Positions 3,433-26,660 of a stretch of DNA of 64,000 bases are shown piece by piece. The stretch's first letter is position 1, and each line of letters begins with the position of its first letter. Origin of the DNA: Schaalia canis (GTDB taxonomy: Bacteria > Actinomycetota > Actinomycetes > Actinomycetales > Actinomycetaceae); contig NZ_RQZF01000008.1 in the NCBI RefSeq assembly GCF_003858455.1, positions 1-64,000 on the forward strand, in the 5' to 3' direction. Made by a program: the position numbers and the translations under genes. Under the pieces are notes generated by a model. It made no database searches and was not told the DNA's origin. It saw only the letters and a program-made list of their open reading frames with translations.

Positions 3433-3493
3433 CTCCACTGCGCGTTTTCCTCTAACCCCTGCCCCCAATCCCCTACCCTTCAGGAGAAACACG

Positions 3494-5026: not shown

Positions 5027-5104
5027 TCCCTGCGTTCAGGCAGCCCAACATGCCGCACCGGCGGCACTCCACCACCCCCGTATTTTCAGCCAAAGGAGAC
5101 TGAC

Positions 5105-7575: not shown

Positions 7576-7620
7576 GCGTCCAATAACGGTCAGCAGCCCG
7601 CCGAAAATGTCTCGTCCCCT

Positions 7621-7663
7621 ATGCTTGGGGGTGTGAGTGGCTCCCACAAGCACCCTCAAGCAT
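7621..7663 (+). terminator. Hairpin after the transporter gene
   Basis: Arms at 7621-7640 and 7644-7663 pair as ATGCTTG, then GGGTG, then TGG, with a few mismatches. It lies 45 bases past the transporter stop and 50 bases before the GntR regulator. There is no T-run, so it may be a weak terminator or attenuator that separates regulator expression from the catabolic genes. Confidence 0.45.
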
Positions 7664-7713
7664 GACCACAGCGAATGCCTCGCCGTCGCACGGATTAAAG
7701 GAACACCCTGACC

Positions 7714-8376
7714 ATGCCAGCCCCCACCTCGAAATCGGACACTGTCTATCAGCAACTGCGTTCACGCATTGTTGACGGCCAGTACACCCCCGGTTTCCGG
7801 CTGACTTTTTCTGCCCTGGCAGAAGAGTTCGGGGTCTCCACCGTTCCTGTACGTGAAGCAATTCGCTCCCTCGAAGCAGAAGGTTTAGTGGAATACACCC
7901 TCAACATTGGCGCTCGAGTGTCTGAGGTCAATCTTGAGGACTACTACGAGTCAATGGTCTCCCTAGCGCTCTTAGAAGGCATGGCAACAGCCCTGGCTGC
8001 CCCTCATATCACGGAAGAGGATCTGCAGATCGCTTATTCCCTCAACCGCGACATGGAAGCCCTCACCCGCTCCTCCTACTTCGACTCTGACGCCTACCGT
8101 AGGCTCAATGGACGTTTCCACTCGGTGCTCTGCGCCCCCTGTCCAAACTCCCGCATCGTGTCACTGGTGACGAATGAGGCAGAACGAGTCACTATTATTC
8201 GCCGTTCCTCACTTAAATTTGAGAGTGCGCAATCAGTGGACTCCATCGCCCAACACGATCACCTTCTTGACCTGATCCGTACAGGAGCCGACCCTGCTGA
8301 GATAGAGAGCTTCGCCCGTCAGCACAAGATGGCATCGCTCCACTCAAAGGTATCGACTCCGCTGCGCTCACTCTGA
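7714..8376 (+). CDS. GntR-family transcriptional regulator, FCD subfamily
   Basis: This 220-residue regulator has an N-terminal winged helix-turn-helix (residues about 5-70: SALAEEFGVSTVPVREAIRS and LEAEGLVEY) and an all-helical FCD ligand domain (about 80-210). FCD regulators usually repress catabolic genes until a carboxylate ligand binds. It sits inside the homoprotocatechuate cluster between transporter and monooxygenase, so it likely controls this cluster. The palindrome at 1775-1790 and the hairpin at 8398-8417 are candidate targets. The ribosome site AAAGGAA lies before ATG 7714. Confidence 0.86.
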   Translation: MPAPTSKSDTVYQQLRSRIVDGQYTPGFRLTFSALAEEFGVSTVPVREAIRSLEAEGLVEYTLNIGARVSEVNLEDYYESMVSLALLEGMATALAAPHITEEDLQIAYSLNRDMEALTRSSYFDSDAYRRLNGRFHSVLCAPCPNSRIVSLVTNEAERVTIIRRSSLKFESAQSVDSIAQHDHLLDLIRTGADPAEIESFARQHKMASLHSKVSTPLRSL

Positions 8377-8397
8377 CTTTTCGTCACTATTGCTCAC

Positions 8398-8417
8398 GTT
8401 GCACCACCGGGTGCAAC
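8398..8417. promoter_or_regulatory. Perfect 8-base inverted repeat between GntR and monooxygenase genes
   Basis: GTTGCACC, a four-base ACCG loop, and GGTGCAAC form a perfect hairpin 22 bases after the GntR stop. No T-run follows, so it may be a terminator core or a regulator-binding palindrome. The rest of the 8377-8516 gap shows nothing clear. Confidence 0.4.
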
Positions 8418-8516
8418 CGCTTCGTATACCCACATTCGCCTTACTCCCCTGCGGCTCACCTGTGAGCATGCTGGGCTGGTGAAGGCCACCCCACAATGAT
8501 GTGAAGGGACTCAATC

Positions 8517-10391: not shown

Positions 10392-10601
10392 ACGGTGCAT
10401 GTGACGGGCCGCCATTGAGCTCGCGAGGCGGTGCGGGGATGTTCCGGCTGGGATCTCAGCGTGACGTCAGCCCACCCCGCACTGCCTTGCGACGATCACT
10501 CGTTTGTTGCTGCTTCGTGTCACCGCAAGACAGATATGGTTGTGCGGACAACACGCGGCACACACCATACTTTTACGCCTCTGACACAGGAGAATTGGAT
10601 C

Positions 10602-11387
10602 ATGCTGGAACCCTCACAGATTGACGCTATCGCGGCTGAACTGGCTCAGGCCGACCAGACTCGCGTCCCCATCCCTCGTATTACCGCGCGCTACCCCGAG
10701 GCCACCGTTGAGGACTCCTACGCGATCCAAGGCGTCTGGCGTGACCAACAAATCGCTGCCGGACGGCGCCTTGTGGGCCGTAAGATCGGCTTGACGTCGA
10801 AAGCCATGCAGGCCGCCACCGGTATCACCGAACCTGACTATGGCGTGATGTTCGACGATACGGTGTACGAGAATGGGTCGGTTATTGACTTTGACCGTTT
10901 CCTCAATGTCCGTATTGAGGTTGAACTCGCCTTTGTCCTCAAGGACGCGCTTGAAGGCCCTCATTGCACGATCTTCGACGTTCTGCGTGCCACCGAGTAC
11001 GTCACTCCTGCCTTGGAAATCCTCAACTCCCACATTGAACTTGAGGGGCGCACCATTGTTGATACGATCTCTGACAATGCTGCCTACGGTGCGATGGTGA
11101 TCGGTGGGCGCCCTATGCGTCCCCACGACCTTGACCTGCGCTGGGTGTCGGCCATGCTCTACCGCAATGAAAGCATCGAGGAAACCGGGGTTTCCGCCGG
11201 CGTCCTCAACCATCCGGCCACTGGCGTCGCCTGGCTGGCCAATAAGTTCGCCCAGCATGGTGCCCGACTGGAAGCCGGAGAGATTATTCTTGCGGGCTCC
11301 TTTACGCGCCCAATGTGGGTCAGCCGCGGCGACTCTGTGCTGTGTGACTACGGACAGATGGGAACAATCTCATGCCGATTCGTCTGA
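10602..11387 (+). CDS. hpaH: 2-oxohept-4-ene-1,7-dioate hydratase
   Basis: This 261-residue hydratase (MhpD/HpaH family) adds water to 2-oxohept-4-enedioate to give 4-hydroxy-2-oxoheptanedioate. The metal site is seen in RIEVELAFVL, with later ITEPDYGVMFDD and a C-terminal GEIILAGSFTRP typical of the family. The frame is open upstream to 10431, but ATG 10602 is preferred because CAGGAGAA precedes it by 7 bases. The 210 bases before it hold no gene. The gene overlaps hpaI by 16 bases, so both are co-translated. Confidence 0.9.
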   Translation: MLEPSQIDAIAAELAQADQTRVPIPRITARYPEATVEDSYAIQGVWRDQQIAAGRRLVGRKIGLTSKAMQAATGITEPDYGVMFDDTVYENGSVIDFDRFLNVRIEVELAFVLKDALEGPHCTIFDVLRATEYVTPALEILNSHIELEGRTIVDTISDNAAYGAMVIGGRPMRPHDLDLRWVSAMLYRNESIEETGVSAGVLNHPATGVAWLANKFAQHGARLEAGEIILAGSFTRPMWVSRGDSVLCDYGQMGTISCRFV

Positions 11388-12205
11388 ATCTTCCCCCCAC
11401 TTTCGGTGAGCAACTGCGTGGCAGCGAGCGTGGCCGCGTCGGCATGTGGGTATGTTCAGGCAGCCCTACCGTTGCTGAAATCTGCGCGGGTGCCGGCTTG
11501 GATTGGCTCCTCATTGACGGTGAGCACGCGCCTTTGACGCTGGAGAACATCCAGCGTCAGCTTCAGGCGGTTGCGGCCTACCCGGTGACGCCGGTGGTGC
11601 GGGTGCCAATCAACGATTGGGTGCTCATTAAGCAATACCTTGACCTGGGCGCGCAGAATCTTCTGATCCCCATGGTTAATACTGCTGAGGATGCCGTCCA
11701 AGCCGTGCGCGCTACCCGCTATCCGCCCGAGGGAGTGCGCGGGGTGGGTTCTGCACTGGCGCGCGGGGCGCGTTGGAATCGTGTGGAGAACTATCTTCAG
11801 CGTGCCAATGATGAGCATGTCTGTGTCATTGTGCAGATCGAGACGGTTCAGGCCGTTCAGAACGCTGCCGCTATTGCCGCGGTCGACGGGGTTGATGCAC
11901 TCTTTATTGGCCCCTCTGACCTGGCAGCATCAATGGGACTGATTGGACAGCAGGATCACCCTGAGGTGATTGCCGCTGTTCACCGCGCCATTGCCGCTGG
12001 CCGCGAGGCCGGAAAGCCCGTGGGTATTAACGCCTTTGATCCACGTTTGGCGCAGCGTTACCTTGATGAGGGGATTGACTTCATTCTTGTGGGTGCTGAC
12101 GTTTCGCTGCTGGCACGAGGCAGTGAGGCGCTGGCTGATCGCTACTGTGCGACACCTGCGTCAGAGTTCACGCATCATGCCCCCGAGGAGCGTCCAAGCT
12201 ATTAG
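11372..12205 (+). CDS. hpaI: 4-hydroxy-2-oxoheptane-1,7-dioate aldolase
   Basis: The 277-residue class II pyruvate aldolase (HpcH/HpaI family) splits 4-hydroxy-2-oxoheptanedioate to pyruvate and succinic semialdehyde. Seen are the catalytic-His segment LLIDGEHAPL, the Arg segment PVVRVP, the metal ligand Glu in CVIVQIET and the Asp in LFIGPSDLAASMG. The start lies inside the hpaH end (16-base overlap). Its second product feeds the dehydrogenase at 175-1662. Confidence 0.9.
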   Translation: MPIRLNLPPTFGEQLRGSERGRVGMWVCSGSPTVAEICAGAGLDWLLIDGEHAPLTLENIQRQLQAVAAYPVTPVVRVPINDWVLIKQYLDLGAQNLLIPMVNTAEDAVQAVRATRYPPEGVRGVGSALARGARWNRVENYLQRANDEHVCVIVQIETVQAVQNAAAIAAVDGVDALFIGPSDLAASMGLIGQQDHPEVIAAVHRAIAAGREAGKPVGINAFDPRLAQRYLDEGIDFILVGADVSLLARGSEALADRYCATPASEFTHHAPEERPSY

Positions 12206-12214
12206 GCTGGAGTC

Positions 12215-13135
12215 ATGGCACGCGTCACTTCGGAATACCCCACCAGTCCTGGCCTTCACGCCTTTGAGTGTGCTGCTGGCCCCTACCGCGCTTCTTTTGT
12301 CAATGCTGGGGCGGGCCTTGCCTCGTTGAGTTTCACAGGGCACGACCTTGTGTTAGCCCACAGCGCTGACCAGTGTCCGCCGGGCTACATGGGGAAGACC
12401 CTTGTCCCCTGGCCGAATCGCATTCGCGATGGCCGCTACTCGTGGATGGGGCAAGACTACGAGCTACCCTGCACAGATATTGCCACCCACACCGCGCTAC
12501 ACGGCTTGTTGTCCTGGACGCACTGGCAGCTCCACGAATATACCGATGACCACTGCATTTTCGATGTCATCAGCCCTGCCTCCTACGGCTACCCCTGGAC
12601 GTTGCAGTCCCGCGTAGAATACTCCCTCAATGCTGACGAGGGCATGAAAGTTGCAATCACAACGCGCAATCTCAGCGATAGTGCTGCCCCTTACGGCACC
12701 TCTCACCACCCCTATCTGACGGCCGGTGAAGGCAGCGTGGATGACTGGGAACTGACTCTTCCAGCGGCTTCGGTCATGGATGCCGACGAGCAGCTCATCC
12801 CCATCGAGAAGCTGCCCGTTACTGCCCTCGATCGAGATTTCCGCGAGGCGCGCTCCCTGCGCGGGGTGACAATCGATCATTGCTTCACAGACATGCCAAC
12901 GCATCGTGCCTGGCGTGTTGACCTGCGCAATCCTGCCACGGGACTCACCACGCACTTGCATAGTGGAGCCCCCTGGGTACAGGCATATACGGGGGATGCT
13001 TTTGGCCGCCTGGGTATTGCTGTTGAGCCAATGACCTGCCCGCCCGATGCCTTTAATACCGGTCAAGATGTCATTGCTTTGGCTCCCGGTGCCACGCATC
13101 GTTTCAGCTACCGGATCAGCGCCAGCGGCATCTGA
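12215..13135 (+). CDS. Aldose 1-epimerase family protein
   Basis: This 306-residue galactose mutarotase-like protein has the sugar-binding segments TLVPWPNRIRDG, the His in ALHGLLSW and the catalytic-type His in GTSHHPYLT, plus GIAVEPMTCPP near the C-terminus. It would interconvert alpha and beta anomers of an aldose. It starts 9 bases after hpaI, with a ribosome site GGCTGGAG, so it can be transcribed with the aromatic cluster though its chemistry is unrelated. It could equally serve the galactose-related regulon further right. The exact sugar is not determined. Confidence 0.82.
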   Translation: MARVTSEYPTSPGLHAFECAAGPYRASFVNAGAGLASLSFTGHDLVLAHSADQCPPGYMGKTLVPWPNRIRDGRYSWMGQDYELPCTDIATHTALHGLLSWTHWQLHEYTDDHCIFDVISPASYGYPWTLQSRVEYSLNADEGMKVAITTRNLSDSAAPYGTSHHPYLTAGEGSVDDWELTLPAASVMDADEQLIPIEKLPVTALDRDFREARSLRGVTIDHCFTDMPTHRAWRVDLRNPATGLTTHLHSGAPWVQAYTGDAFGRLGIAVEPMTCPPDAFNTGQDVIALAPGATHRFSYRISASGI

Positions 13136-16069: not shown

Positions 16070-16981
16070 CTAGCCCTTCACCGAGCCAGCAGCCAGGCCG
16101 GACTGCCAGTACTTTTGCAGGCCCAGGAAGAGGACAATCAGCGGGATAACACCCAATAGTGCACCCAGCATGACGGCACCCTTTTCGGGGGCGAAGTAGG
16201 TCATCATGCCGTACAAGCCCAAGGTGACGGGCTTGAGCGTGTCCGAAGAGACCATCATCAAGGGCAGAAGGAAGTTATTCCAGGTTGCTACGAAGATGAA
16301 CAGGAAGATCGTCACCATGGCGGGCGCGAGAAGGCGCAGCACCATGGTGAAGAAGATCCGCGCTTCGCTGGCCCCGTCAATGCGGGCTGCCTCGATCAGT
16401 TCCGTGGGGACGGAGGACTGGGCGTAGACCCTTCCGAGGAACACGCCAAAGGGGCTCACGCAGGAGGGGATGATGATTGCCAGCATCGTGTTGGTCAGGC
16501 CGAGATTGTGAAAGACCAGGTACATGGGGATGGTCAGCAGGGCGATGGGCATGAGCAGCCCAGCCATAATGACGCCCATGGCCAGGTTTTTTCCGGGAAA
16601 GTTAAACTTTGCCATCGCGTAGCCTGCCATGACGGAGATCAGTGTGCCAACGACGCCTGCCACCGTTGAGTACAGCAAGGAGTTAAGCACCCAGCGCCAG
16701 AAGTTTCCCTTCGTCCATGCCATCAAAGCAGCATAGTTTTCGAGGTATTTGATCTGGTCGGCAAACCAGTAGCCGTTTGTCGAGGCAAGCTGGCCGGTGT
16801 CTTTGGATGAGGCGACAATGACCCAGTAGACGGGGAAGAGGAAGTACACCAGGGCCATGAGCAAGATGGCGGCGGTCAGCCAGCGAGCTGCTGAGGAGGG
16901 CGCAACCGATCGGATGGGCATTCCCTCAATGGAGGGGGTGTATGTGCGCCCGTCTGGAAGTGTTGAGTGTGCCGATGCCAT
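16070..16981 (-). CDS. ABC sugar transporter permease, MalG type
   Basis: This 303-residue inner-membrane permease has about six hydrophobic segments and the EAA loop that docks the ATPase (EAARIDGASEARIFF). It pairs with the permease just upstream, overlapping by one base, and with the binding protein at 18113. No ATPase gene is nearby; carbohydrate importers of this class often use a shared MsiK-like ATPase encoded elsewhere. Context with the GH112 phosphorylase points to a galacto-N-biose/lacto-N-biose importer. Confidence 0.88.
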   Translation of the reverse strand: MASAHSTLPDGRTYTPSIEGMPIRSVAPSSAARWLTAAILLMALVYFLFPVYWVIVASSKDTGQLASTNGYWFADQIKYLENYAALMAWTKGNFWRWVLNSLLYSTVAGVVGTLISVMAGYAMAKFNFPGKNLAMGVIMAGLLMPIALLTIPMYLVFHNLGLTNTMLAIIIPSCVSPFGVFLGRVYAQSSVPTELIEAARIDGASEARIFFTMVLRLLAPAMVTIFLFIFVATWNNFLLPLMMVSSDTLKPVTLGLYGMMTYFAPEKGAVMLGALLGVIPLIVLFLGLQKYWQSGLAAGSVKG

Positions 16982-17967
16982 TAGTTGTCCAACTTCCTGT
17001 CGATGAGGGCGTAAGCCATAGCCAAGACGCCTGCAATCAGTGCCATCACGATGGATACTGCTGAAGCGGGTCCATCCCCTGAGGGTGTCAGAGTGCCCAT
17101 CATGGTGTTGTAGGCCATCATCATGGGCGTGTAGGCCGGTCCCATCCAGGTGGCCACCTGAGACATGACGGCGGGCTCATTGAAGAGCTGGATGGTGCCC
17201 ACAATGGAGAGCAAGACAGCCAGGAGGGCGGCTCCTCGCACCATGGGGATCTTCACCTTGGTGACGATTTGGAATCCGCTTGCTCCGTCAATGCGAGCGG
17301 CCTCGGACAGCTCGGTGGGAATGGCTTGGAGTGCAGCCAGGAAGATCAGCATGTTGTAGCCGGTGTAGGTCCATGTCGTCATATTCGCCATGGAGGCAAG
17401 CACGGTGTACTGGCCAAAGAAGTCAATGTCGATGCCCACTGCGCGCAGGGTGGATACCAGGGGTGAAATCTCAGGGGTGTAGAGGTAGAGCCAGATCATG
17501 GCCGCAACGATGCCGGGGATAGCAAAGGGAAGGAAGTATCCCAGGCGGTAGATGGTGACTCGGCGGGTGAGGTAGGAGTCCAGGACGAGGGCGAGCGCCA
17601 GTGCTGACAGGATCATAATGGGCACTTGGACGATGGTGTAGCCGATGACGCGCGCGATGCCCTGCCAGAACACGGGGTTGGTGACGACGTCGTGGTAGTT
17701 TTCGAGGCCAACGAATTGATTGGTGAGTTCTCCGCCGCCATAGAGGCCGCCGCCTGTGCTGAGGGGCTTGAAGAAGGATGAGTATATCGAGACGAGGATA
17801 GGGACGAGGAAAACCAGGATGAAGGCCAGGGAAAAGGGTGCCATAAAGACCCATCCCGTTAGTGCTTCGCGCCGTTCCCTATTCCGTCGCGAGTGAGTGC
17901 TTGGGGCTCCGGTAGTGGAGGATGCGCCGTGCGCCTCGCCCTTGCCGTGTTGTGTGTGTGCATTCAC
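16981..17967 (-). CDS. ABC sugar transporter permease, MalF type
   Basis: The 328-residue protein has a charged cytoplasmic N-terminus of about 35 residues, six hydrophobic segments and an EAA loop (EAARIDGASGFQIVTKVKIP). It is the partner of the MalG-type permease that begins at its stop. It lies 145 bases downstream of the binding-protein gene, and a strong hairpin occupies that gap, which should keep permease levels below binding-protein levels. Confidence 0.88.
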   Translation of the reverse strand: MNAHTQHGKGEAHGASSTTGAPSTHSRRNRERREALTGWVFMAPFSLAFILVFLVPILVSIYSSFFKPLSTGGGLYGGGELTNQFVGLENYHDVVTNPVFWQGIARVIGYTIVQVPIMILSALALALVLDSYLTRRVTIYRLGYFLPFAIPGIVAAMIWLYLYTPEISPLVSTLRAVGIDIDFFGQYTVLASMANMTTWTYTGYNMLIFLAALQAIPTELSEAARIDGASGFQIVTKVKIPMVRGAALLAVLLSIVGTIQLFNEPAVMSQVATWMGPAYTPMMMAYNTMMGTLTPSGDGPASAVSIVMALIAGVLAMAYALIDRKLDN

Positions 17968-18053
17968 GATGTCACCTGAGTGTTCACGCTGTAGTGGTCG
18001 TTTCCTCGGGGTGCGCTATTTGGCACCTCGTGAGGAGACGAAGGAAAGGGGAT

Positions 18054-18098
18054 GATGAAGGGGGCATCCGCTTCAGTGAGGCGGATGCCCCCTTCATC
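18054..18098 (-). terminator. Intercistronic hairpin between binding protein and permeases
   Basis: A perfect 18-base stem (18054-18071 with 18081-18098) encloses a 9-base loop. It lies 14 bases past the binding-protein stop and before both permease genes on the minus strand. No long T-run follows, so partial termination or protection of the upstream message from 3' decay is likely, giving more binding protein than permease. Confidence 0.75.
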
Positions 18099-18112
18099 AG
18101 GAGATGGTCATC

Positions 18113-19456
18113 TCACTCTGCAACGGGAAGGTTGAGATCCTTGAGGGTCTTCACCGATGCTTCCTGAGCGGTTGTGAAGATGTCTGCAACCTTGCCTTCG
18201 CCCTTGACTACCTTGCCTGCGGTTTCCACCATGGCGTCAGCCACTGCGGGGAAGCCGGGGATGAAGGCGAAGTCTGCGAGGGTTTCGTTGGCCTTTGCGA
18301 GCTCTGCGAATACGTCCTGGCCGCCGAACTGCTTCTTGATCTTGTCGGAGGTGACAACCTCACCCTTTGCTGCAACGACGAGGCCTTGGGTGGCCAGGTC
18401 CTTGGTCTGGGTGTTGAACCAGTTGTTGAACTCCATTGCTTCTGCGGGGTGTGCGCAGCCCTTGAGGACGGCTACGCCGGAGCCACCGTCGTGGCCGGTC
18501 TTGCCGGTGCCGAAGTCGGGCAGGAGTGCGACCTGCCAGGTGCCGTCTTCGCCTTCGGGCACGACGCCATCAAGCATGAAGCCTGCTTCCCATGCGGCAC
18601 CGATGTTGCCGATGAGGGTCTTGTCTACCAGGGCCTTGGAGTAGGCGTCGTCCCAACGGTTGTAGGTCAGGACTGCCTTGGCGTCGATGAGTTCTTGCCA
18701 GAATGCGGCAACCTTCTTTGCGCCTTCACCTTCGATGGTGACATTCCACTTGTCGTCCTTGGCGCTGTACCAGGTGTCACCGGCGGCGACAGCCTGGCCA
18801 CCAAGCCAGTAGCCGGGTTCGTCTGCCTCGAAGTCAAGAATGTACTTGCCCTTTTCGGCTGCCTTCTTTGCTTCTTCCTTCAGTTCGTCGAGGGTGGTCG
18901 GAACCTTCAGGCCGAGGGCGTCGAATTCGGCCTTGTCGTAGAAGTACACGAGGGGGCCGGTGTCCTGGGGAAGGCCGACAACCTTACCGCCCACGGACAT
19001 GAGGGAGTAGGCGCCGGAGAAGTTGTCCTTGTACTTTTCAGCTTCGGCGGTGACGTCTTCGACGAGGCCCTTGGTGAAGAAGGCGGGAACCTCGGCGTAG
19101 CCAAGCTGGGCGAGGCAGGGGGCTGCCCCGGCGTTGATGTCGGTTTCGAGCTTCTTGATCATTTCGAGGGCCTTGCCATCGAACTTGGTGGCCTTGACCT
19201 GAACGTCGGGATGCTCTTCGTTCCAGCGTGCAACGATTTCGTCTACCTTGACCATGCCGTCGCCGTCAGGCAGGCGGTGGAGGTATTCGATTTCGATGGC
19301 ATCGCCTGCAGCTTCAGGAGCTGCAGTGGCTGATTGGGTGTCACCGCTGCTGGCTGCAGGGGTTTCCGAGGATGAGCAGGCTGCCAGGCCCATTGTTGCG
19401 ATGGAGGCGGTAGCGAACAGTGCTACGGCCTTCGTCATTGAGGTCGATTTCGACAT
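18113..19456 (-). CDS. Extracellular sugar-binding lipoprotein of ABC importer
   Basis: This 447-residue solute-binding protein has an N-terminal lipoprotein signal: positively charged start, hydrophobic core and lipobox LAAC at about residue 26, followed by a Ser/Ala-rich linker to about 50. The rest is a family 1 carbohydrate-binding fold (EYLHRLPDGDG, a central VGLPQDTGPLVYFYDKAEF, GHDGGSGVAVLKGCAH). It would sit on the outer face of the membrane and deliver an oligosaccharide to the permeases at 16070-17967. The neighbouring phosphorylase suggests galacto-N-biose or lacto-N-biose as ligand. Ribosome site GAAGGAGAG lies before ATG 19456. Confidence 0.9.
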   Translation of the reverse strand: MSKSTSMTKAVALFATASIATMGLAACSSSETPAASSGDTQSATAAPEAAGDAIEIEYLHRLPDGDGMVKVDEIVARWNEEHPDVQVKATKFDGKALEMIKKLETDINAGAAPCLAQLGYAEVPAFFTKGLVEDVTAEAEKYKDNFSGAYSLMSVGGKVVGLPQDTGPLVYFYDKAEFDALGLKVPTTLDELKEEAKKAAEKGKYILDFEADEPGYWLGGQAVAAGDTWYSAKDDKWNVTIEGEGAKKVAAFWQELIDAKAVLTYNRWDDAYSKALVDKTLIGNIGAAWEAGFMLDGVVPEGEDGTWQVALLPDFGTGKTGHDGGSGVAVLKGCAHPAEAMEFNNWFNTQTKDLATQGLVVAAKGEVVTSDKIKKQFGGQDVFAELAKANETLADFAFIPGFPAVADAMVETAGKVVKGEGKVADIFTTAQEASVKTLKDLNLPVAE

Positions 19457-19485
19457 GAAGTCACTCTCCTTCGAGGATCAGAAAT

Positions 19486-19500
19486 GATTAATTCTGATTG
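19486..19500 (-). promoter_or_regulatory. Operator-like motif upstream of the binding-protein gene
   Basis: GATTAATTCTGATTG at 19486-19500 matches 13 of 15 bases of the motif at 22816-22830 (GATCAATACTGATTG) in the divergent promoter region. It lies 29-44 bases before the binding-protein start. A shared site for the DeoR regulator at 21888 is the likely explanation. Confidence 0.5.
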
Positions 19501-19570
19501 CAGACCCATACTAGCGCGCATAATCGATAAATCTCATCCTCGGCTGACAATTTGCCCATAACAATCACAT

Positions 19571-19614
19571 AACGGTGGTGGGGAAGCGCGAAAACACGCT
19601 TCCCCACCACCGTT
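19571..19614 (-). terminator. Terminator of the phosphorylase gene
   Basis: A perfect 18-base stem (19571-19588 with 19597-19614) encloses the 8-base loop CGAAAACA. It begins 28 bases past the GH112 stop on the minus strand. It separates the deoR-phosphorylase unit from the importer genes, which therefore need their own promoter. Confidence 0.8.
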
Positions 19615-19642
19615 ACTCACACGCCATCAGGCGCGCATCACA

Positions 19643-21814
19643 CTAGGGACGCAACCACAGCGAACCCAAAGGCTCCAAAGTGACCGCAGCTTTCTCCTGC
19701 GGCACACCATGCAGCACGGTGGAGACCGTCTCCATGGAGGAGTTGTAGACAAAGACTGCTCCATCGGCGTAGCTGGCTACATCAACACGCTGATCTTCAG
19801 CGTGGATGGAGGCCTCGTAGGAGTCCTCAGCTCGCGCCGCCCAGTAAATCGCCCTGGCCAAAATGCGGGCGTTCTCCTGGCTGAAGGGCAGACCAGCCAG
19901 GTAGACCGAGCGCCCTTGGCCGTACGCATTTACTGCTGCATGCACGCTCGTTCCTTCAGAGGCCACCACCTCCACGCTGGAAGTCACCGGCACCCAGAAA
20001 CGCGAGCCCCCCGCAGCATTGAGCCTCAGCGCTGCTCCACCTTCACCTTGCATAATGAAATGCTCTTCGGCGCGCGTCGGGTAACGGTCTGTCGACAAAG
20101 AGAAGGACTGTTCTTGGTCAACGCCAAAGACATCTGACAGTTGGTTCACTGCACCGTTCGCGATATAGGCACAGGGCTCTCCCACACCAATAATGCCGCC
20201 GCCGTCAGCGACGAAGCGACGCACCACTGATTGCAGCTCCACATCGGCCCAGTGGGCTCCGCCCGAGAAGGCTGTTCCCGCTTCACCGACGTTCACGAGC
20301 ACGTCAATCCCTTCGGGCACCCCTGCTCGGATGTCATCAAAAGACATGAACTCGACGTCGAAAGGCAGGCCCGCGAGCGCTTCGAGTACACCCACATAGG
20401 CCTCGGTCTGTTCAAACGGTAGGGCGTGGGCGACCATGTGGGTCTGCCAGGAACGCACCTTGCCCCAGGCGTTGAGTACGCCTACGCGCACCGGCGCTGC
20501 CAGGGGGCGCTCTCCGGCAGCAGCCTCGTAGATGTCGCGGAATTCTTGGCAGATCTGGGTAATGCGTTCAACGAATTCGGGGAATTGGATGGCCAGAGAG
20601 AGGTAGCCGCCGTATCCGATTCGGTCGAGCGGGGAGCGTACGATAGCGCGGCGGGCTGCCATCCACGAGGTATTGGCCTCCCCCACCGGATCGCCTTCCG
20701 GGTTGAACACGTCGGGGAAGAAGTAGGGCAGGAAACGGCCTTCGGTGTATCGCACATGCGGGATGTCAGAGATCATGCGGCAGGTTGCGGCGTTGCCCAC
20801 GGAGCCAACGACGGCGTCCAAGCCTGTTTCAGCAAAACGCTCCCCGTAGGGTTCGGTGCCGATCCAGTTATCCCCGAGGAACATCATTGCTTCTTTGCCT
20901 GCGGCATGGACGGCATCGGTGAGTTCGCGCACGCGGGAGGTAACAAAGCGGTTTTGGAAGTCCATCCAGTCGCGGAATGCCTTAGTGGGCACGCGGAAGG
21001 AGCAGTTGTAGTAGCCCTCGTCCACGAAGTCCTCAGGGGTCAGACGGTAGCCGTATTCGGCGTAGAAAGCCTCCATAGCTTCGACGGAGACGGATGCGGA
21101 GTACCCGAACCAGTCAACGTACTTTTCTTTGCGTTGGTTATTGAATACCAGGGTGAAGTGGTAGAAGAAGGTGGTGAAACGGACGACGTCAATTTCGTCG
21201 TGCTCAGCCAGCCAGCGGTCGAGTTCGCTGCGGACGCGTTCCCACACCTTGGGGAGGCGTACATCGTAGGGGCGTTCTTGGTGGCGGGTGGGGTCATCGT
21301 CCCAGTTATTGGTGATGTAGTTGTACATCTGGGTGGAGTCCCAGATTTGGCGGGCGAGGAAGTTGACGGTGTAGAGGTGGCCTAGTTCGGGTGCGAGGAT
21401 GCGCACATGGCTGTCGTCAATGAGTTCCCATTCCTCGCGCGCCAGGGTGCGTCCGGTGGTGCGGTCAATGACCTGCCAGTATCGGGCGAGGTCAACCTGG
21501 GTGTTGGGGGCGAATTGTTCGGTGAGGTAGCCCTCCATAATGTCGATGACGAGGTCGCCTCCCAGTGCTGGGGTGCGGGGGGACTGGAGGTATTGGTGGA
21601 TGGTGGTGTCGGGGTTGTCGAGGGCCCATTCCTGGTCACCGCGTGCGGGGAAGTAGGTGGAGTAGACCTTTGCGGCGAGTTCGTGAACGAGGTCGGGCAG
21701 GTGGGTGCCATCTGAGTTGCGCACCGCATCGGCGCCGAGTTGCTGCATCAGTTTTTTCACGTCCTCATCGATACCAACTTCGATGGGGAGTGTGACGCGG
21801 CCGTGGGTTGTCAT
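19643..21814 (-). CDS. lnpA: 1,3-beta-galactosyl-N-acetylhexosamine phosphorylase (GH112)
   Basis: This 723-residue cytoplasmic enzyme splits galacto-N-biose or lacto-N-biose I with phosphate to galactose 1-phosphate plus GalNAc or GlcNAc. GH112 identity is seen in the N-terminal region (GHLYTVNFLARQIWDST, RFTTFFYHFTLVF), the conserved WFGYSASVSVEAMEAFY, MFLGDNWIGTEPYG and GSVGNAATCRMISD, and the C-terminal glutaminase-like domain. Length is near the usual 720-750. The frame is open to 21949, but ATG 21814 has AGAGGAGA before it, while the upstream extension looks non-coding. It follows deoR by 73 bases. Preference for GNB over LNB cannot be told from sequence here. Confidence 0.92.
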   Translation of the reverse strand: MTTHGRVTLPIEVGIDEDVKKLMQQLGADAVRNSDGTHLPDLVHELAAKVYSTYFPARGDQEWALDNPDTTIHQYLQSPRTPALGGDLVIDIMEGYLTEQFAPNTQVDLARYWQVIDRTTGRTLAREEWELIDDSHVRILAPELGHLYTVNFLARQIWDSTQMYNYITNNWDDDPTRHQERPYDVRLPKVWERVRSELDRWLAEHDEIDVVRFTTFFYHFTLVFNNQRKEKYVDWFGYSASVSVEAMEAFYAEYGYRLTPEDFVDEGYYNCSFRVPTKAFRDWMDFQNRFVTSRVRELTDAVHAAGKEAMMFLGDNWIGTEPYGERFAETGLDAVVGSVGNAATCRMISDIPHVRYTEGRFLPYFFPDVFNPEGDPVGEANTSWMAARRAIVRSPLDRIGYGGYLSLAIQFPEFVERITQICQEFRDIYEAAAGERPLAAPVRVGVLNAWGKVRSWQTHMVAHALPFEQTEAYVGVLEALAGLPFDVEFMSFDDIRAGVPEGIDVLVNVGEAGTAFSGGAHWADVELQSVVRRFVADGGGIIGVGEPCAYIANGAVNQLSDVFGVDQEQSFSLSTDRYPTRAEEHFIMQGEGGAALRLNAAGGSRFWVPVTSSVEVVASEGTSVHAAVNAYGQGRSVYLAGLPFSQENARILARAIYWAARAEDSYEASIHAEDQRVDVASYADGAVFVYNSSMETVSTVLHGVPQEKAAVTLEPLGSLWLRP

Positions 21815-21887
21815 GGGTTCTCCTCTGAACTCGCGGGAAATGAAAGGCGGGGAATGAAGGAAGGAAAGAAGGGGATGGGGGTTGGTT

Positions 21888-22682
21888 TTAGGGAGCGGGG
21901 GCGATGACGACCTCAATCCCGTGTTCTCGTAGGGCGTGGGCGTGTTCATCGCAGATGCCGGTGTCGGTGACGACGGCCGATACTGCTGTCAGTGGGGCAA
22001 TCTTGGCAAAGGCGCTCTGTCCGATTTTTCCTGAGTCGGCAACGACGACGACGCGCCGGGCTGCACTGGCGAGCGCGGCGTTCACTTGGGCTTCGCCCTC
22101 GTGGTCGGTGTAGAGGCCGTGCGTCAGGTCAAGAGCGTTGATTCCCAGGAAGAGCGTGTCAACGGAGATGTGCGGCAGGATGAGGGAGGAGAGAGGTCCA
22201 GTCAGTTCATAGCTGCGTGCCCGCACGACCCCGCCTGTGACGACGACGCGCACTCCGGGGCGAATAGCAAGGTCGTTGGCGATGTTGATGGCGTTGGTGA
22301 CCAGGGTGATGCCGTCATTTTCGAAGTCTTCTTCTGCGCTGACTCGTAGGCCAACTTCGTGGGCGGTCAAGGTGGTGGTTGTACCGCCGTTGAATCCAAT
22401 GACGTCGCCTGGGGCAACCATTGCGGCAGCACTGCGGGCAATGGCGAGTTTGGCATCTGATTGTGCGCCTGAGCGGTAGCGCAGGGGCAGTTCTCCACTG
22501 GAGGGGTTGGCGCTAGCACCGCCACGGGTGCGCATGATGAGCTGTTGGTTGGCCAGTGTGTCGAGGTCACGGCGTACAGTTGCTGGAGATACGCCGAGTT
22601 CTTCGACAGCATCTTCGACGCGCAGGGTGCCACGTTCCATCACCAGATGGGCCAGTGCCGAGAGTCGGTCTTGGCGGTTCAC
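21888..22682 (-). CDS. DeoR-family transcriptional regulator
   Basis: The 264-residue protein has an N-terminal DeoR helix-turn-helix (RVEDAVEELGVSPATVRRD, residues about 20-40) and a C-terminal sugar-phosphate-binding domain (GFNGGTTTTLTAHEVG, FLGINALDLTHGLYT, VVVADSGKIGQSAFAKI). Such proteins repress sugar genes until a phosphorylated intermediate binds; AgaR is the functional parallel for galactosamine genes. It is transcribed with the phosphorylase and divergently from the catabolic arm. The paired motifs at 22816 and 19486 are its likely operators. Confidence 0.87.
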   Translation of the reverse strand: MNRQDRLSALAHLVMERGTLRVEDAVEELGVSPATVRRDLDTLANQQLIMRTRGGASANPSSGELPLRYRSGAQSDAKLAIARSAAAMVAPGDVIGFNGGTTTTLTAHEVGLRVSAEEDFENDGITLVTNAINIANDLAIRPGVRVVVTGGVVRARSYELTGPLSSLILPHISVDTLFLGINALDLTHGLYTDHEGEAQVNAALASAARRVVVVADSGKIGQSAFAKIAPLTAVSAVVTDTGICDEHAHALREHGIEVVIAPAP

Positions 22683-22815
22683 GGCAGCTCTCCTTTCCCA
22701 TGTTTTCTGCCCGTTTTCTTCCCTATTGTGCGTCAGGAGTGGACGTGAAGGGGAGAATGTGAAAACAGTGGTGCGTAGTTGGTGGTGAAAGTGTCACTGC
22801 ACAGAGTACACTAAC

Positions 22816-22832
22816 GATCAATACTGATTGAT
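22816..22832 (+). promoter_or_regulatory. Operator-like palindrome in the divergent regulon promoter region
   Basis: GATCAATACTGATTGAT contains the inverted repeat ATCAAT/ATTGAT around a 4-base centre and shares 13 of 15 bases with the motif before the binding-protein gene. It lies between deoR (start 22682) and the SIS gene (start 22910). A TTGATA overlapping its right half could be a -35 element, so a bound regulator would block transcription. Confidence 0.55.
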
Positions 22833-22909
22833 ACAGTCTATCTGTAATCATGTTTAGTCAATAGATGCTCTCGTTATTGACCACATCGCCCACAAGGAAG
22901 GTGCCCCTC

Positions 22910-23791
22910 ATGAGCATTACCAGCGCCGAAATTGCTTCCCAGCCCGAGGTCTGGACCCGCGTTGTCGAATGTGCCGCCGACGCAGCCCCCCTCGTTGCCG
23001 ACGGAGACTCTGTCGCCGTCGTCGGCTGCGGAACCTCATGGTTCATCGCCCAGGCCTACACGCGCATGCGCGAAAGCATGGGCAAGGGCGTTTCCGATGC
23101 CTTCACCGCCACCGAGTTCCCCGTTGAACGCGCCTACGATCACGTCATTTGCCTCTCTCGCTCTGGCACCACCACCGAGATCATCGACGTCATGCGCCAA
23201 CTCCACGAGGCCGGCCGCCCCGCTACCCTCATCACCGCAGTCTCCCCTGGCCCCGCCTCACCCTACGCTCACACCGAGATTGTCCTTGACTTCGCGGACG
23301 AAGAATCCGTCGTCCAGACGCGCTTTGCCACCTCCGCCCTCGCATACTTCCGCCTTAACCTTGGCCAGGATCTGACCCAGACCATTGCGGATGCTCGCAC
23401 TGCTCTTGAAGTCGAGATCCCCCAGCGCTGGGTAGAAGCCACTCAGATCACCTTCCTTGGCTACAACTGGACCATCGGCCTGTCCAACGAAGCTGGCCTG
23501 AAACTGCGTGAAGCCAGCCAATCCTGGACCGAGGCCTACTCCGCCATGGAGTACCGTCATGGCCCGATCTCCATTGCTGAACCTGGCCGACTCGTGTGGG
23601 CATTCGGTGAAGTTCCCGAAGGCCTCGAAGAACAAGTTGGCGCCACCGGCGCAGAGTTCGTTCACTCTGACCTTGATCCCATGGCTGACCTCATCATCGC
23701 CCAACGCCTTGCTGTGGCCCGGGCAGAGGCGCGCGGCCTCAACCCCGACACCCCCCGCCACCTCACCCGTTCGGTAATTCTCGACGCCTGA
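22910..23791 (+). CDS. SIS-domain sugar-phosphate isomerase/deaminase (AgaS-like)
   Basis: This 293-residue protein has two SIS modules: VVGCGTSWFIAQAY and LSRSGTTTEIIDVM in the first half, FLGYNWTIGLSNEAGLKLRE and AMEYRHGP in the second, the layout of GlmS C-terminal domains and AgaS. With a kinase, a PfkB kinase and a class II aldolase following, conversion of galactosamine 6-phosphate to tagatose 6-phosphate with loss of ammonia is the best guess. ATG 22910 is preferred over 22865 because AAGGAAGG lies just before it. A glucosamine-6-phosphate role remains possible. Confidence 0.8.
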   Translation: MSITSAEIASQPEVWTRVVECAADAAPLVADGDSVAVVGCGTSWFIAQAYTRMRESMGKGVSDAFTATEFPVERAYDHVICLSRSGTTTEIIDVMRQLHEAGRPATLITAVSPGPASPYAHTEIVLDFADEESVVQTRFATSALAYFRLNLGQDLTQTIADARTALEVEIPQRWVEATQITFLGYNWTIGLSNEAGLKLREASQSWTEAYSAMEYRHGPISIAEPGRLVWAFGEVPEGLEEQVGATGAEFVHSDLDPMADLIIAQRLAVARAEARGLNPDTPRHLTRSVILDA

Positions 23792-23799
23792 TTTACAGA

Positions 23800-23841
23800 G
23801 CCTTCGCGGCGTGCCACACTCAGCGTGTACGCCGCGAAGGC
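23800..23841 (+). terminator. Intercistronic hairpin between SIS and ROK genes
   Basis: A perfect 12-base stem, GCCTTCGCGGCG at 23800-23811 and its complement at 23830-23841, with a further ACAC/GTGT pairing inside the loop. It lies 8 bases after the SIS stop and 50 before the ROK start. No T-run follows, so partial termination or message processing is likely rather than a full stop. Confidence 0.7.
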
Positions 23842-23891
23842 GTTCATCTTCCTCATACCCCTATCCCATCCATACATTTGAGGAGTACACC

Positions 23892-24827
23892 ATGCGATAC
23901 GCGATCGGCATTGACGTAGGCGGCACCACCATCAAAGCGGCCCTCATCGGCGAGAATGCGCGAATATACGACTCGATCAGCATGGACACTCCCCACTCCA
24001 CCGGAGCCATCACCTCCGCATGCTCCACCCTGGTCACCACCCTGCGTGACCGCGTCAACGCCGGTGACCTTGAAGGCGTTAATGGCCCTATCCACCCTGA
24101 TGAACTCATCAGCACCATCGGCGTTGACGTACCCGGCATCGTTGACGAACAACGCGGCATCGCCGAGTTTTCCGCAAATCTCGGCTGGGAAAACTGGAGA
24201 GCCCACGCCGACTTTGAAGCCGCACTGGGCACATCCGTTGCCTTTGGCCACGACGTTCGCAACGGCGCCAAAGCTGAATCCCACTGGGGCATCGCCCTAC
24301 CCAACTTCTTCTACATTGCTATCGGCACAGGTATCGCCTCGGTTCTGGTTATCAATGGCGCGCCTGTAGCCCCACACGGCTGGGCAGGTGAAATCGGTCA
24401 GGTGCCCGTCCCCGATCCTCAACGCCAAGGCTCCCTTTTACCCCTTGAACAGGTCAGCAGTGCCTCCGCTATTGCCAAGCGGGCCATCGAAGCAGACCTC
24501 GTAGGAGAGGACGCCGGCGCCGCAGAGGTCTACCTTCTTGCCGGCGCAGGTAATGAGGACGCGCAAGACATCATCAACGACGCAATCTGCGCCCTTGCCC
24601 ACGGTATCGCCCCCGCCCTGGCAGCATTTGGCCCCATTCCCGTTGTTCTGGGTGGCGGCCTAGCAAATGAGGGCGACCCCCTTTGCGATCACCTTGAAAT
24701 GGAACTAAGCCTTGCCCTAGGCATCATCCCCCCACCTCCGGTCATGACCGCCACCCTCGGCTCACGCTCCCAAGTTCTTGGGGCAGCGCTGAGCGCCTTC
24801 CAATGTCACGACCTTCTCGGACAATAA
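23892..24827 (+). CDS. ROK-family sugar kinase, probable N-acetylhexosamine kinase
   Basis: The 311-residue kinase has the ATP phosphate loop at its start (AIGIDVGGTTIKAALIG) and the catalytic Asp in FGHDVRNGAKAE. The second phosphate motif is seen as YIAIGTGIASVLVINGAP. The usual zinc motif of ROK proteins (GH then CxCGxxGC) is absent: here GEIGQVPVPDPQRQGSLLPLEQVSSASAI has neither the His nor the cysteines. In this regulon the expected substrate is GalNAc (or GlcNAc) released by the phosphorylase. ATG 23892 follows GAGGAG; the longer frame to 23811 crosses the hairpin and is unlikely. Confidence 0.82.
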   Translation: MRYAIGIDVGGTTIKAALIGENARIYDSISMDTPHSTGAITSACSTLVTTLRDRVNAGDLEGVNGPIHPDELISTIGVDVPGIVDEQRGIAEFSANLGWENWRAHADFEAALGTSVAFGHDVRNGAKAESHWGIALPNFFYIAIGTGIASVLVINGAPVAPHGWAGEIGQVPVPDPQRQGSLLPLEQVSSASAIAKRAIEADLVGEDAGAAEVYLLAGAGNEDAQDIINDAICALAHGIAPALAAFGPIPVVLGGGLANEGDPLCDHLEMELSLALGIIPPPPVMTATLGSRSQVLGAALSAFQCHDLLGQ

Positions 24828-24879
24828 CGGAAAAACGCAGCCGCGATAGCCTCACCAGAGCAGCACAGGAGACGTCTGC

Positions 24880-25821
24880 ATGACGACGATCTGGACCATC
24901 ACCCCCAACCCCGCCCTTGATTTCACCTACAGGGTGCCTGCCTTGAACTACGGGCATAGCCATCGCGTCGACCACGTTGATATACGCCCCGGCGGTAAAG
25001 GTATTAACGTGGCGCGCGTCCTTGCTCAACTCGGGTATGCGTCCTGCGTGACAGGATTCCTTGGAGGCAGCAACGGCAGCACTTTTCGAGATCTGCTCAC
25101 CCAATGCGCCCCTTCTGACCTGCTCCGCCCCTGTTTTATCGACACCGATATGCAAACGCGCATGAGTATCGCGGTTGTCGATTCGGACGCGACCGTGTTC
25201 AATGAAGCGGGAATCGCCCCACAGGATTCAGACTGGGAACGCCTGTGCGACTTCCTTGCCAAAAAGGTTCGCCCCGGTGACATCGTTGCCTGCTGCGGGT
25301 CCTTCCCAGGGGACTCCTCCCCTACCTGGATTGAAGCGATTATCCGTACCGTCCACGAGGCCGGCGCACGCATCCTCGTTGATGCCAGTGGTGACCTCTT
25401 AACTGCGGCGTGCCACGCTGGTGCTGACCTGGTTAAGCCCAATGACATTGAACTCCGTCAGACAACGGGGAAGGACAGTGTCGAAGAAGGCGCACGCACT
25501 CTCCTGAACGACGGGGTGAGTGTGGTGATCGTGTCAGAAGGCGCTCGCGGCATGAGCGTTCATGGCAACGATGGAGCCTTCCGCGCGCTTCCCGCTCGCT
25601 CAGTTGCAGGAAATCCTACGGGTGCTGGGGATGCCTCGGTGGCGGCATGGTGTGCTTTCCTTTCCTCCTACGACGGTCCAATGACTGCGGCTGCTCTTGC
25701 CGATGCCCTGCCCCAAGCTGTTGCTCTTTCGGGGGCGGCTGTCGCCTGCCCCGTTGCGGGCGAAGTTGACCGCGATCTTTATGAAGAAATGCTCCCTCTA
25801 GTGAAAGTTGAGTCCTACTGA
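24880..25821 (+). CDS. PfkB-family kinase, probable tagatose-6-phosphate kinase
   Basis: This 313-residue kinase is of the LacC/FruK group: N-terminal ITPNPALDFTY, RPGGKGINVARVLAQLG near residue 40, and the catalytic NPTGAGDASVAAW near the C-terminus. It would phosphorylate tagatose 6-phosphate to the 1,6-bisphosphate; 1-phosphofructokinase activity cannot be excluded on sequence. Its TGA overlaps the next ATG by one base, tying it to the aldolase and favouring the tagatose assignment. Ribosome site AGGAGA lies before ATG 24880. Confidence 0.85.
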   Translation: MTTIWTITPNPALDFTYRVPALNYGHSHRVDHVDIRPGGKGINVARVLAQLGYASCVTGFLGGSNGSTFRDLLTQCAPSDLLRPCFIDTDMQTRMSIAVVDSDATVFNEAGIAPQDSDWERLCDFLAKKVRPGDIVACCGSFPGDSSPTWIEAIIRTVHEAGARILVDASGDLLTAACHAGADLVKPNDIELRQTTGKDSVEEGARTLLNDGVSVVIVSEGARGMSVHGNDGAFRALPARSVAGNPTGAGDASVAAWCAFLSSYDGPMTAAALADALPQAVALSGAAVACPVAGEVDRDLYEEMLPLVKVESY

Positions 25822-26660
25822 TGCCTCTTGTCGATATTCGCCAGATGGCTGCCGAAGCCGCAGCCGCCAAGGTTGGTCTTGGTGCCTTCAACGTGGTGCT
25901 CCTTGAGTTCGCTCACGCTGAGGTTGAGGCTGCTGAACGCGTCGGTGTGCCTATCGTCCTCCAGCTTTCAGAGAATGCCATTAAGTATCACGGTGGGAAG
26001 ATCGCGCCACTGGGTGCTGCACTGCTGGCCCTAGCTCATGAGGCGAGCGTACCCGTTGCTGTCCATCTCGATCACGCCGAAAGCGTTGACCTGTGCAAGG
26101 CTGCAGTCGACTTGGGCTTTAACTCGGTCATGTATGACGGCTCCCATTTGGATGATGCGACGAACCGTGACACCACGGCTGCTGTGGTGGAGTTTTGCCA
26201 TGCTGCGGGTGTTGCTGTTGAAGCTGAACTTGGTGAGGTTGGGGGAAAGAACGGCGTGCACGACCCCTCGGCGCGCACGAACCCTGAAGATGCTGCCGCC
26301 TTCGTTGCTGACACAGGTGTGGATCTACTCGCTGTGGCCGTCGGTTCCTCTCACGCCATGACAACCCGCGGCGCTGTGCTCGATACTGAGCTTATTAGCG
26401 CTATTCGTGATGCTGTTCCTGTCCCCCTGGTGTTGCATGGCTCCTCGGGCGTCTCTGATGAGGGCATGGTGGCTGCTATTAAGGCGGGCATGACCAAGAT
26501 CAACGTCTCTACCCACCTCAATGTGGGGTTCACCGGCGTTGTGCGTGAGATCCTCAATGCGGACGAGAAGATCGTTGACCCACGCAAATACGTTGGACCA
26601 GGCCGAGCTCATGTCACTGACGAGGTTGCCCGCCTGCTCTCCTTGTACACCACCGCCTAA
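25821..26660 (+). CDS. Class II aldolase, probable tagatose-1,6-bisphosphate aldolase
   Basis: The 279-residue enzyme is a zinc-dependent fructose/tagatose-bisphosphate aldolase (KbaY/GatY/FbaA family). Metal-site segments are VHLDHAES (about residue 80), EAELGEVGGKNG and the second-His LVLHGSSG near 210, followed by TKINVSTHLN. It would split tagatose 1,6-bisphosphate to dihydroxyacetone phosphate and glyceraldehyde 3-phosphate, linking the regulon to glycolysis. It is translationally coupled to the PfkB kinase. Fructose specificity is not excluded. Confidence 0.87.
   Translation: MPLVDIRQMAAEAAAAKVGLGAFNVVLLEFAHAEVEAAERVGVPIVLQLSENAIKYHGGKIAPLGAALLALAHEASVPVAVHLDHAESVDLCKAAVDLGFNSVMYDGSHLDDATNRDTTAAVVEFCHAAGVAVEAELGEVGGKNGVHDPSARTNPEDAAAFVADTGVDLLAVAVGSSHAMTTRGAVLDTELISAIRDAVPVPLVLHGSSGVSDEGMVAAIKAGMTKINVSTHLNVGFTGVVREILNADEKIVDPRKYVGPGRAHVTDEVARLLSLYTTA

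Follow-up and report, generated by a model that had tools for sequence, protein, structure and literature searches.

In mucins, the N-acetylgalactosamine (GalNAc) of core 1 acts as the anchoring sugar. The known pathway for galacto-N-biose (GNB), the core-1 disaccharide, was elucidated in bifidobacteria. There, GNB and lacto-N-biose (LNB) are handled by GltABC, the GH112 phosphorylase LnpA, NahK, GalT and GalE. This article concerns a gene cluster at positions 16070 to 26660 of a 64,000-nucleotide stretch of Schaalia canis DNA (contig NZ_RQZF01000008.1 of assembly GCF_003858455.1), hereafter the window, which lies on contig 68 of a 2.58-Mb genome in a family that includes mouth and mucosa members. 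The cluster resembles the bifidobacterial system in its GltA-like solute-binding protein (SBP) and two permeases, its GH112 phosphorylase, and the predicted supply of disaccharide by a GH101 enzyme. In contrast to Bifidobacterium, the genome has no match to a NahK-like kinase or to GalT, and GalNAc would exit through a SIS protein, a PfkB kinase, and an aldolase.

The Aga pathway of enterobacteria and Shewanella (AgaK or a phosphotransferase system (PTS), AgaA, AgaS, tagatose-6-phosphate kinase, and KbaY or GatY) comprises the same reactions as those predicted here and likewise has a DeoR-family regulator and a class II aldolase. However, the SIS protein of the window is not AgaS, its kinase belongs to the ROK family, the disaccharide would enter through an ATP-binding cassette (ABC) importer and undergo phosphorolysis, and NagA is a general enzyme encoded at an unlinked site. 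The gnb operon of Lactobacillus, which reportedly includes deacetylase and SIS members, ties the use of GNB and LNB to a galactosamine-6-phosphate (GalN-6-P) deaminase route, as is also predicted here. The operon relies on a PTS (GnbPTS) and the intracellular hydrolase GnbG, according to the available text of PMC5583593, whereas the window has an ABC importer and a phosphorylase. In the same text, Ravcheev and Thiele (2017) counted LnbABC-LnbP as an entry to GalNAc catabolism and AgaS, with cd05010 as its criterion, as a signature gene; that part of the source does not describe the SIS clade, the divergent cluster, or the exclusion of NahK discussed below. A search of the open-access literature returned no paper on this cluster. 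The predicted pathway is of a known kind, wired in a new way.

Proposed route and its distribution among relatives

The cluster is divergent. Genes for a DeoR-family regulator, GH112, the SBP, and two permeases occupy the minus strand, and genes for the SIS protein, the ROK kinase, the PfkB kinase, and the aldolase occupy the plus strand. All are intact open reading frames (ORFs) of the families named in the first-pass annotation, and the SIS, ROK, PfkB, F_bP_aldolase, and DeoR Pfam domains score above their cut-offs. The genes, their families, linkage, conservation and co-occurrence, and the operator-like elements they share are observed directly.

We consider it likely that these genes serve the import and phosphorolysis of GNB, with the GalNAc half entering a tagatose-type route through NagA, the SIS protein, PfkB, and the aldolase. 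A surface GH101 enzyme encoded elsewhere would free GNB, which the GltA-like SBP and the two permeases would import with an MsiK/UgpC-type ATPase, also from elsewhere in the genome. With phosphate, GH112 would convert GNB to galactose 1-phosphate (Gal-1-P) and GalNAc. The ROK kinase would phosphorylate GalNAc at O6, the single NagA of the genome would deacetylate GalNAc 6-phosphate (GalNAc-6-P), and the SIS enzyme would yield tagatose 6-phosphate and ammonia. PfkB would then phosphorylate tagatose 6-phosphate, and the class II aldolase would release dihydroxyacetone phosphate and glyceraldehyde 3-phosphate. Every substrate in this scheme is predicted, as are the use of NagA and the order of steps. 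For the order, which the first-pass annotation left open, kinase, deacetylase, deaminase is the most likely sequence because known ROK hexosamine kinases phosphorylate O6 and published NagA enzymes accept GalNAc-6-P.

The distribution of these genes was compared across 213 genomes of the family, apparently Actinomycetaceae in a wide sense that includes Georgenia. Fisher values given here overstate significance, as the genomes are related and kinship was not corrected for. A window-type SIS match (E<=1e-40) occurs in 54 genomes, two of which (G103 and G104) have matches of 45-50% identity only. GH112 occurs in 92 genomes, 86 above the TIGR02336 cut-off and six with sub-cut-off pieces only. The two genes coincide in 43 of the 54 SIS genomes (p 4e-10) and lie within 15 kb of each other in 40 of these 43, so that the arrangement noticed at first pass is not a chance one.

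The SIS gene and NahK-like kinases exclude each other. NahK-like genomes were defined by a match at E<=1e-25 to the APH-family kinase of locus L118, where this kinase adjoins GH112 and is followed by a class-2 GalT. Such kinases occur in 20 of the 213 genomes, beside GH112 in 12 of the 20, and none of the 20 has the SIS gene. Among the 92 GH112 genomes, 43 have SIS only, 19 have the NahK-like kinase only, none has both, and 30 have neither (p 8.6e-7). Two genera hold both kinds among their GH112 species, and the within-genus chance of zero overlap is 0.0125. The window's own genome has no match to the L118 kinase at 1e-25. The simplest meaning of this exclusion is that both do one job, the removal of GalNAc, and from these distributions the SIS cassette appears to stand in for NahK.

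Other wirings occur in the family. NahK-like kinase and GalT are found together at L118, L121, and L122, and L117 has the kinase without an adjacent GalT. At L127 (10968-13565), a single 865-aa ORF adjoining GH112 encodes the two as a fusion. A nucleotidyltransferase is present in 27 of the 30 GH112 genomes that have neither SIS nor NahK-like kinase (five of these 30 have only pieces of GH112). In genus g3, this gene forms a group with genes for a GlmM-like mutase and a GHMP kinase resembling galactokinase, located after GH112 and the importer (L110, 12893-16438; also L111 and L115; the proteins scanned were those of L110). A third back end, operating through a GHMP GalNAc 1-kinase, is thus possible in g3 on the basis of gene content. 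At L116 and L120, DeoR-GH112 is divergent from ROK and aldolase genes, and the region between the two groups contains no window-type SIS gene.

We also lean towards a broader reading. The SIS proteins would form a new clade, without orthology to AgaS or AgaI, that acts as the GalN-6-P deaminase of Actinomycetes. This clade would anchor one of three or more exchangeable back ends (SIS/tagatose, NahK with GalT, and GHMP kinase with nucleotidyltransferase and mutase) on a single GltABC-GH112 front, with an operator shared with secreted GH101 in several lineages. If the proposed route is right, many species of the family share importer and phosphorylase but convert GalNAc into glycolytic intermediates and free ammonia, without a uridine diphosphate-sugar cycle for the GalNAc half. 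A function would be assigned to a widespread SIS clade, advising caution when its members are annotated as GlmS or glucosamine-6-phosphate (GlcN-6-P) deaminase, and the exclusion could serve as a simple marker of a genome's GalNAc route.

Front end, SIS protein and back-end enzymes

The SBP (18113-19456, minus strand; SBP_bac_1) is closest among solved structures to 7vfr (E 9e-134), 7vfq (4e-133), and 2z8d (5e-132), the next match being at 6e-26. The Bifidobacterium GNB/LNB-binding protein (GltA) is 2z8d; 7vfr and 7vfq are named only in general terms. Two minus-strand permease genes (both PF00528) follow, of the MalF/UgpA type (16981-17967) and of the MalG/UgpE type (16070-16981). The latter, a predicted part of the GNB/LNB importer, is 55-83% identical to its counterparts in relatives that have it beside a window-type SBP, except at L129 (35%). 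The importer is of the GltA type in that its SBP is nearest GltA, it has two permeases, and an ATPase is encoded elsewhere in the genome. This MsiK/UgpC-type ATPase, absent from the cluster, is encoded on contig 57 (463 versus a cut-off of 432 bits for NF008653 (PRK11650), which we take to be the UgpC type) and presumably powers the importer.

GH112 (19643-21814, in an ORF to 21949, minus strand) belongs to the 1,3-beta-galactosyl-N-acetylhexosamine phosphorylases, scoring 871.9 bits for TIGR02336 against a cut-off of 560.3. It matches BlGLNBP of B. longum (3wfz; E 5.8e-202) from the start to residue 738 of 768, and one of its Asp residues aligns with Asp313 of BlGLNBP, presumably the catalytic acid. 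Contig 57 also carries a gene for a GH101 endo-alpha-N-acetylgalactosaminidase (375 bits, 1806 aa), whose signal-like start and sortase-like LAWTG tail predict a surface protein. GH101 enzymes free GNB, not LNB, from O-glycans. The use of mucin core 1, anticipated from the cluster, thus has a candidate source of GNB encoded in the genome. GH101 occurs in 43 of the 213 genomes, all of which carry GH112, and in none of the 121 GH112-free genomes.

The SIS protein (22865-23791, plus strand; PF01380) is a predicted GalN-6-P deaminase/isomerase. It is 24% identical to E. coli AgaS (E 0.03), and it passes no NCBIfam deaminase model at cut-off, including the NagB-II/GlmD-type GlcN-6-P deaminase models NF046059 (29.9 of 430 bits) and NF041128 (71.2 of 580). 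The best matches of its AlphaFold2 (AF2) model (pLDDT 86.5) are to GlcN-6-P deaminases and the isomerase domain of GlmS, with a TM score of 0.76 to 2cb0. Because the fold lands on these two groups jointly, it indicates the type of reaction and does not name the sugar. The W-x-E-x-Y and RHGP motifs, which contain the Glu and His expected of a GlmS-type isomerase, are invariant in 71 aligned SIS rows (the residue alignments count some genomes twice, for example as L003 and L070). At one C-terminal position, however, 71 of 71 rows have Arg where the P. furiosus deaminase 2cb0 has Lys; we take this position to correspond to Lys603 of GlmS. NagB, a GlcN-6-P deaminase, is present in the genome (277 bits, cut-off 236.9) and in 52 of the 54 SIS genomes (E<=1e-20), the exceptions being G114 and G149 (70% complete). 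A second GlcN-6-P deaminase would therefore be unneeded, which makes GalN-6-P the likelier substrate of the SIS protein. The protein is best read as a member of a separate clade of non-orthologous GalN-6-P deaminases with the hexosamine-6-phosphate deaminase fold. The "Aga-type" label proposed at first pass accordingly fits the predicted role but not the orthology of the SIS gene.

NagS, a SIS-type GlcNAc-6-phosphate dehydratase, was considered for the SIS protein and set aside on its published description: according to PMC12680351, it is MurQ-related, occurs only in Streptomycetaceae, and fails to bind GalNAc-6-P. Naming the substrates of cassette proteins through family models was also tried and abandoned, as no substrate-specific cut-off was passed.

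The ROK kinase (23892-24827, in an ORF from 23811, plus strand), a predicted GalNAc 6-kinase, is a member of its family (PF00480, 111.7 bits). The Asp of its GHDVR motif, presumably the catalytic Asp of ROK kinases, is invariant in 44 rows; a zinc-motif position that we take to be usually His is Gln in 38 of the 44. PfkB (24880-25821, plus strand), a predicted tagatose-6-phosphate kinase, passes only the umbrella family TIGR03168 (231.6 versus 216.4 bits). The predicted tagatose-1,6-bisphosphate (TBP) aldolase (25821-26660, plus strand; PF01116) passes the general ketose-bisphosphate aldolase model TIGR00167 (234.4 versus 215.6 bits) and shares 36% identity with GatY and 35% with KbaY of E. 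coli. One position, presumed to separate fructose-1,6-bisphosphate (FBP) from TBP enzymes, is Ser in the window, Ala in GatY, Asp (KINTDTD) in 1rv8 and 2fjk, both taken to be Thermus FBP aldolases, and Asn in 3q94. Among 63 aligned cassette aldolases it is Ser in 51, Gly in nine, and Ala in three. The Ser counts only as a hint of TBP preference.

No deacetylase gene is found on the window's contig, in agreement with the first-pass annotation. The only TIGR00221 match of the genome, a NagA on contig 75, falls short of the cut-off of 225.65 with 185 bits. NagA occurs in 199 of the 213 genomes (E<=1e-25), so its co-occurrence with SIS is uninformative. In published work, E. coli nagA can replace agaA (PMC3668189; also PMC12118421), and S. 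coelicolor NagA has a kcat/Km of 1.03e4 on GalNAc-6-P, about one tenth of the 1.01e5 on GlcNAc-6-P (PMC12680351). By analogy, the genome's NagA could supply the deacetylase step. Gene neighbours, determined with tblastn and a codon-model ORF caller at 38 named loci with a window-type SIS gene, are consistent with this: within 5 kb downstream on the same strand lie ROK at 19 loci, PfkB at 21, aldolase at 27, and a NagA-like gene at six (Mangrovihabitans, Microlunatus, Catenuloplanes, two Enemella, and one metagenome-assembled genome). At L020, SIS, ROK, NagA, and aldolase genes are consecutive, which covers each predicted step except that of PfkB.

Operator-like elements and natural variants

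The DeoR-family regulator (21888-22682, minus strand; HTH_DeoR, DeoRC) shares 31% identity with AgaR of E. coli (E 1e-37) and scores 172.4 bits for the AgaR model NF040755, whose cut-off is 260. An operator motif was built from relatives: 44 SIS upstream regions were collected, 43 used (the nearest relative being left out), and 35 kept. Its seed was one relative's site, picked after the site in the window's genome had been seen. The motif was scanned against 123 kb of the genome, namely the window and four stretches chosen for GH101, MsiK, NagA, and NagB. The best match lies in the divergent gap (22816-22838, plus strand; 22.4 bits, shuffle p 0.001) and the second roughly 30 bp ahead of the start codon of the SBP gene (19486-19508, plus strand; 14.3 bits, shuffle p 0.020). 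The upstream region of GH101 holds the fourth (12.9 bits, shuffle p 0.022). Of the divergent regulon proposed at first pass, the gene order is evident, and relatives support the operator-like elements in the divergent gap and before the SBP gene; control of the cassette by the DeoR protein through them is our inference.

In relatives, the GH101 upstream region carries the motif at p<=0.05 in seven of 25 SIS genomes and in none of 12 NahK genomes (one-sided Fisher p 0.047); at p 0.01, five of the 25 remain, three of them from one genus. The start codon was taken as the first of the open frame, no upstream DNA was available for G114, and the sites of G091 and G116, two of the seven positives, overlap the start codon. 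Five GH101 genomes have neither SIS nor NahK, and three of these were scored.

No operator is found in the gap between the SBP and permease genes (top score -0.2). This gap has a hairpin signal (z -10.3), as does that between GH112 and the SBP gene, where RNA folding of 19550-19642 gives a 22-bp-stem hairpin behind GH112 (19569-19616, minus strand; z -8.8) that is likely a terminator or processing site. These strong hairpins around the SBP gene make it likely that the importer is a unit of its own with its own operator. A very stable hairpin (23800-23841, z -6.5), which may act in termination, attenuation, or processing, also separates the SIS and ROK genes within the plus-strand operon. For GH112, SIS, and ROK, start conservation together with sequence resembling ribosome-binding sites points to true starts near 21814, 22910, and 23892, respectively.

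The nearest named relative at this locus, Schaalia sp. Marseille-Q2122 (L002; genome G174 is taken to be the same strain), whose SIS protein is 94% identical, no longer has the importer or GH112 but retains the operator-like element and the genes for SIS, ROK, PfkB, and aldolase. At L002 8818-9003, remnants of the MalG/UgpE-type permease and GH112 genes are adjacent (82 bp, 93% identical to window 16257-16338, and 122 bp, 84% identical to 21388-21509) and the rest of importer and phosphorylase is gone. These remnants read as deletion scars. A GH101 search of this genome gave no match. GH112 is also in at least two pieces in G085 (L107, about 9883-12067), G186, and G033, suggesting decay, and in G085 the DeoR-SIS-ROK-PfkB-aldolase genes persist beside the split GH112.

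Alternative explanations and neighbouring genes

Several observations weigh against the proposed route or its extensions. The SIS protein scores 30.2 bits for the AgaS model TIGR02815, whose cut-off is 529.2, and its nearest folds are glucosamine-6-phosphate, not galactosamine-6-phosphate, deaminases. PfkB reaches 103.2 of 409.55 bits for LacC, and the aldolase 196.9 of 443.55 and 225.6 of 383 bits for the TBP models TIGR01858 and GatY. The label "NahK" derives from position and neighbours, and no family model names the APH kinase. GH112 lies within 8 kb of SIS at 14 of the 38 loci, none of which is among the six NagA-bearing ones, and 11 of the 54 SIS genomes lack GH112. Among the motif matches, the third (14.1 bits), a chance one inside the nagA coding region, exceeds the GH101 site, and another at window 41757 (12.7 bits) comes close behind it. 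The GH101 operator signal is absent in 18 of the 25 SIS genomes (G114, without upstream DNA to score, is counted among the 18) and present in one of the three scored genomes with neither SIS nor NahK. The passage of Gal-1-P to other enzymes, proposed at first pass, is unproven: the genome has no PF01087 (GalT) match, in a search whose control was positive in 6 of 14, and lacks the nucleotidyltransferase seen near GH112 in relatives; GalU, GalE, and galactokinase were not searched for as sinks. GalT occurs in 67 of the 213 genomes and, among the 43 with SIS and GH112, 18 have GalT, nine the nucleotidyltransferase, and 21 neither.

The folds of the SIS protein would suit a glucose-type system, in which GH112 acts mainly on LNB, the ROK protein is a GlcNAc kinase, the SIS protein is a NagB-II-like GlcN-6-P deaminase, and fructose phosphates are the substrates of PfkB and aldolase. 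By name 2z8d binds both disaccharides, bifidobacterial GH112 is described in print as having no clear preference between GNB and LNB, and tagatose and fructose enzymes are not told apart by family models. Such a system nevertheless seems unlikely to us. NagB is already present here and in nearly all SIS genomes, fructose 6-phosphate requires no dedicated PfkB and aldolase, GH101, whose product is GNB, tracks GH112, and the aldolase has Ser in place of the Asp of the Thermus enzymes, at a position presumed to set sugar preference. The tagatose-type route in place of NahK, as put forward at first pass, draws support from the presence of NagB, the SIS/NahK exclusion, and NagA near SIS in six distant relatives (none with GH112 nearby).

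The SIS genomes without GH112 and the losses in L002 would fit a free-standing cassette for GalNAc or galactosamine from other sources, with GH112 a metabolically unconnected neighbour; the cassette kept in L002 indicates that it can serve GalNAc without GNB. As an account of the whole cluster, this is improbable, given the close SIS-GH112 linkage, the exclusion of NahK-like kinases, and the operator-like element common to the SIS, SBP, and GH101 upstream regions. Moreover, L002 lacks GH101 as well as GH112, which indicates that its GNB supply was lost as a whole. The absence of a deacetylase from the cluster could instead mean that deacetylation of GalNAc comes first, or that its phosphorylation takes place at O1, ahead of its entry into the cassette. 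This is the least probable of the alternatives, since the sole NagA-type match is to a family of phosphosugar deacetylases, O6 is the position used by known ROK hexosamine kinases, and the O1-kinase candidate of relatives, of the APH type, is absent from the genome at E 1e-25. The route from GNB to tagatose 6-phosphate by kinase, NagA, and SIS protein is preferred. The ATPase and NagA that it would take from outside the cluster were both found where the first-pass annotation had pointed, in the rest of the genome.

Near the cluster, an aldose-1-epimerase gene (12215-13135, plus strand; above the PRK15172 cut-off) is possibly linked to galactose use. Farther upstream, at 1963-12205, Pfam domains indicate an aromatic meta-cleavage-type catabolic cluster, with genes for a FAA hydrolase/RraA fusion, an aldehyde dehydrogenase, a glyoxalase/dioxygenase-superfamily protein, an MFS transporter, a GntR regulator, a phenol-hydroxylase-like monooxygenase, and an HpaI-type aldolase.

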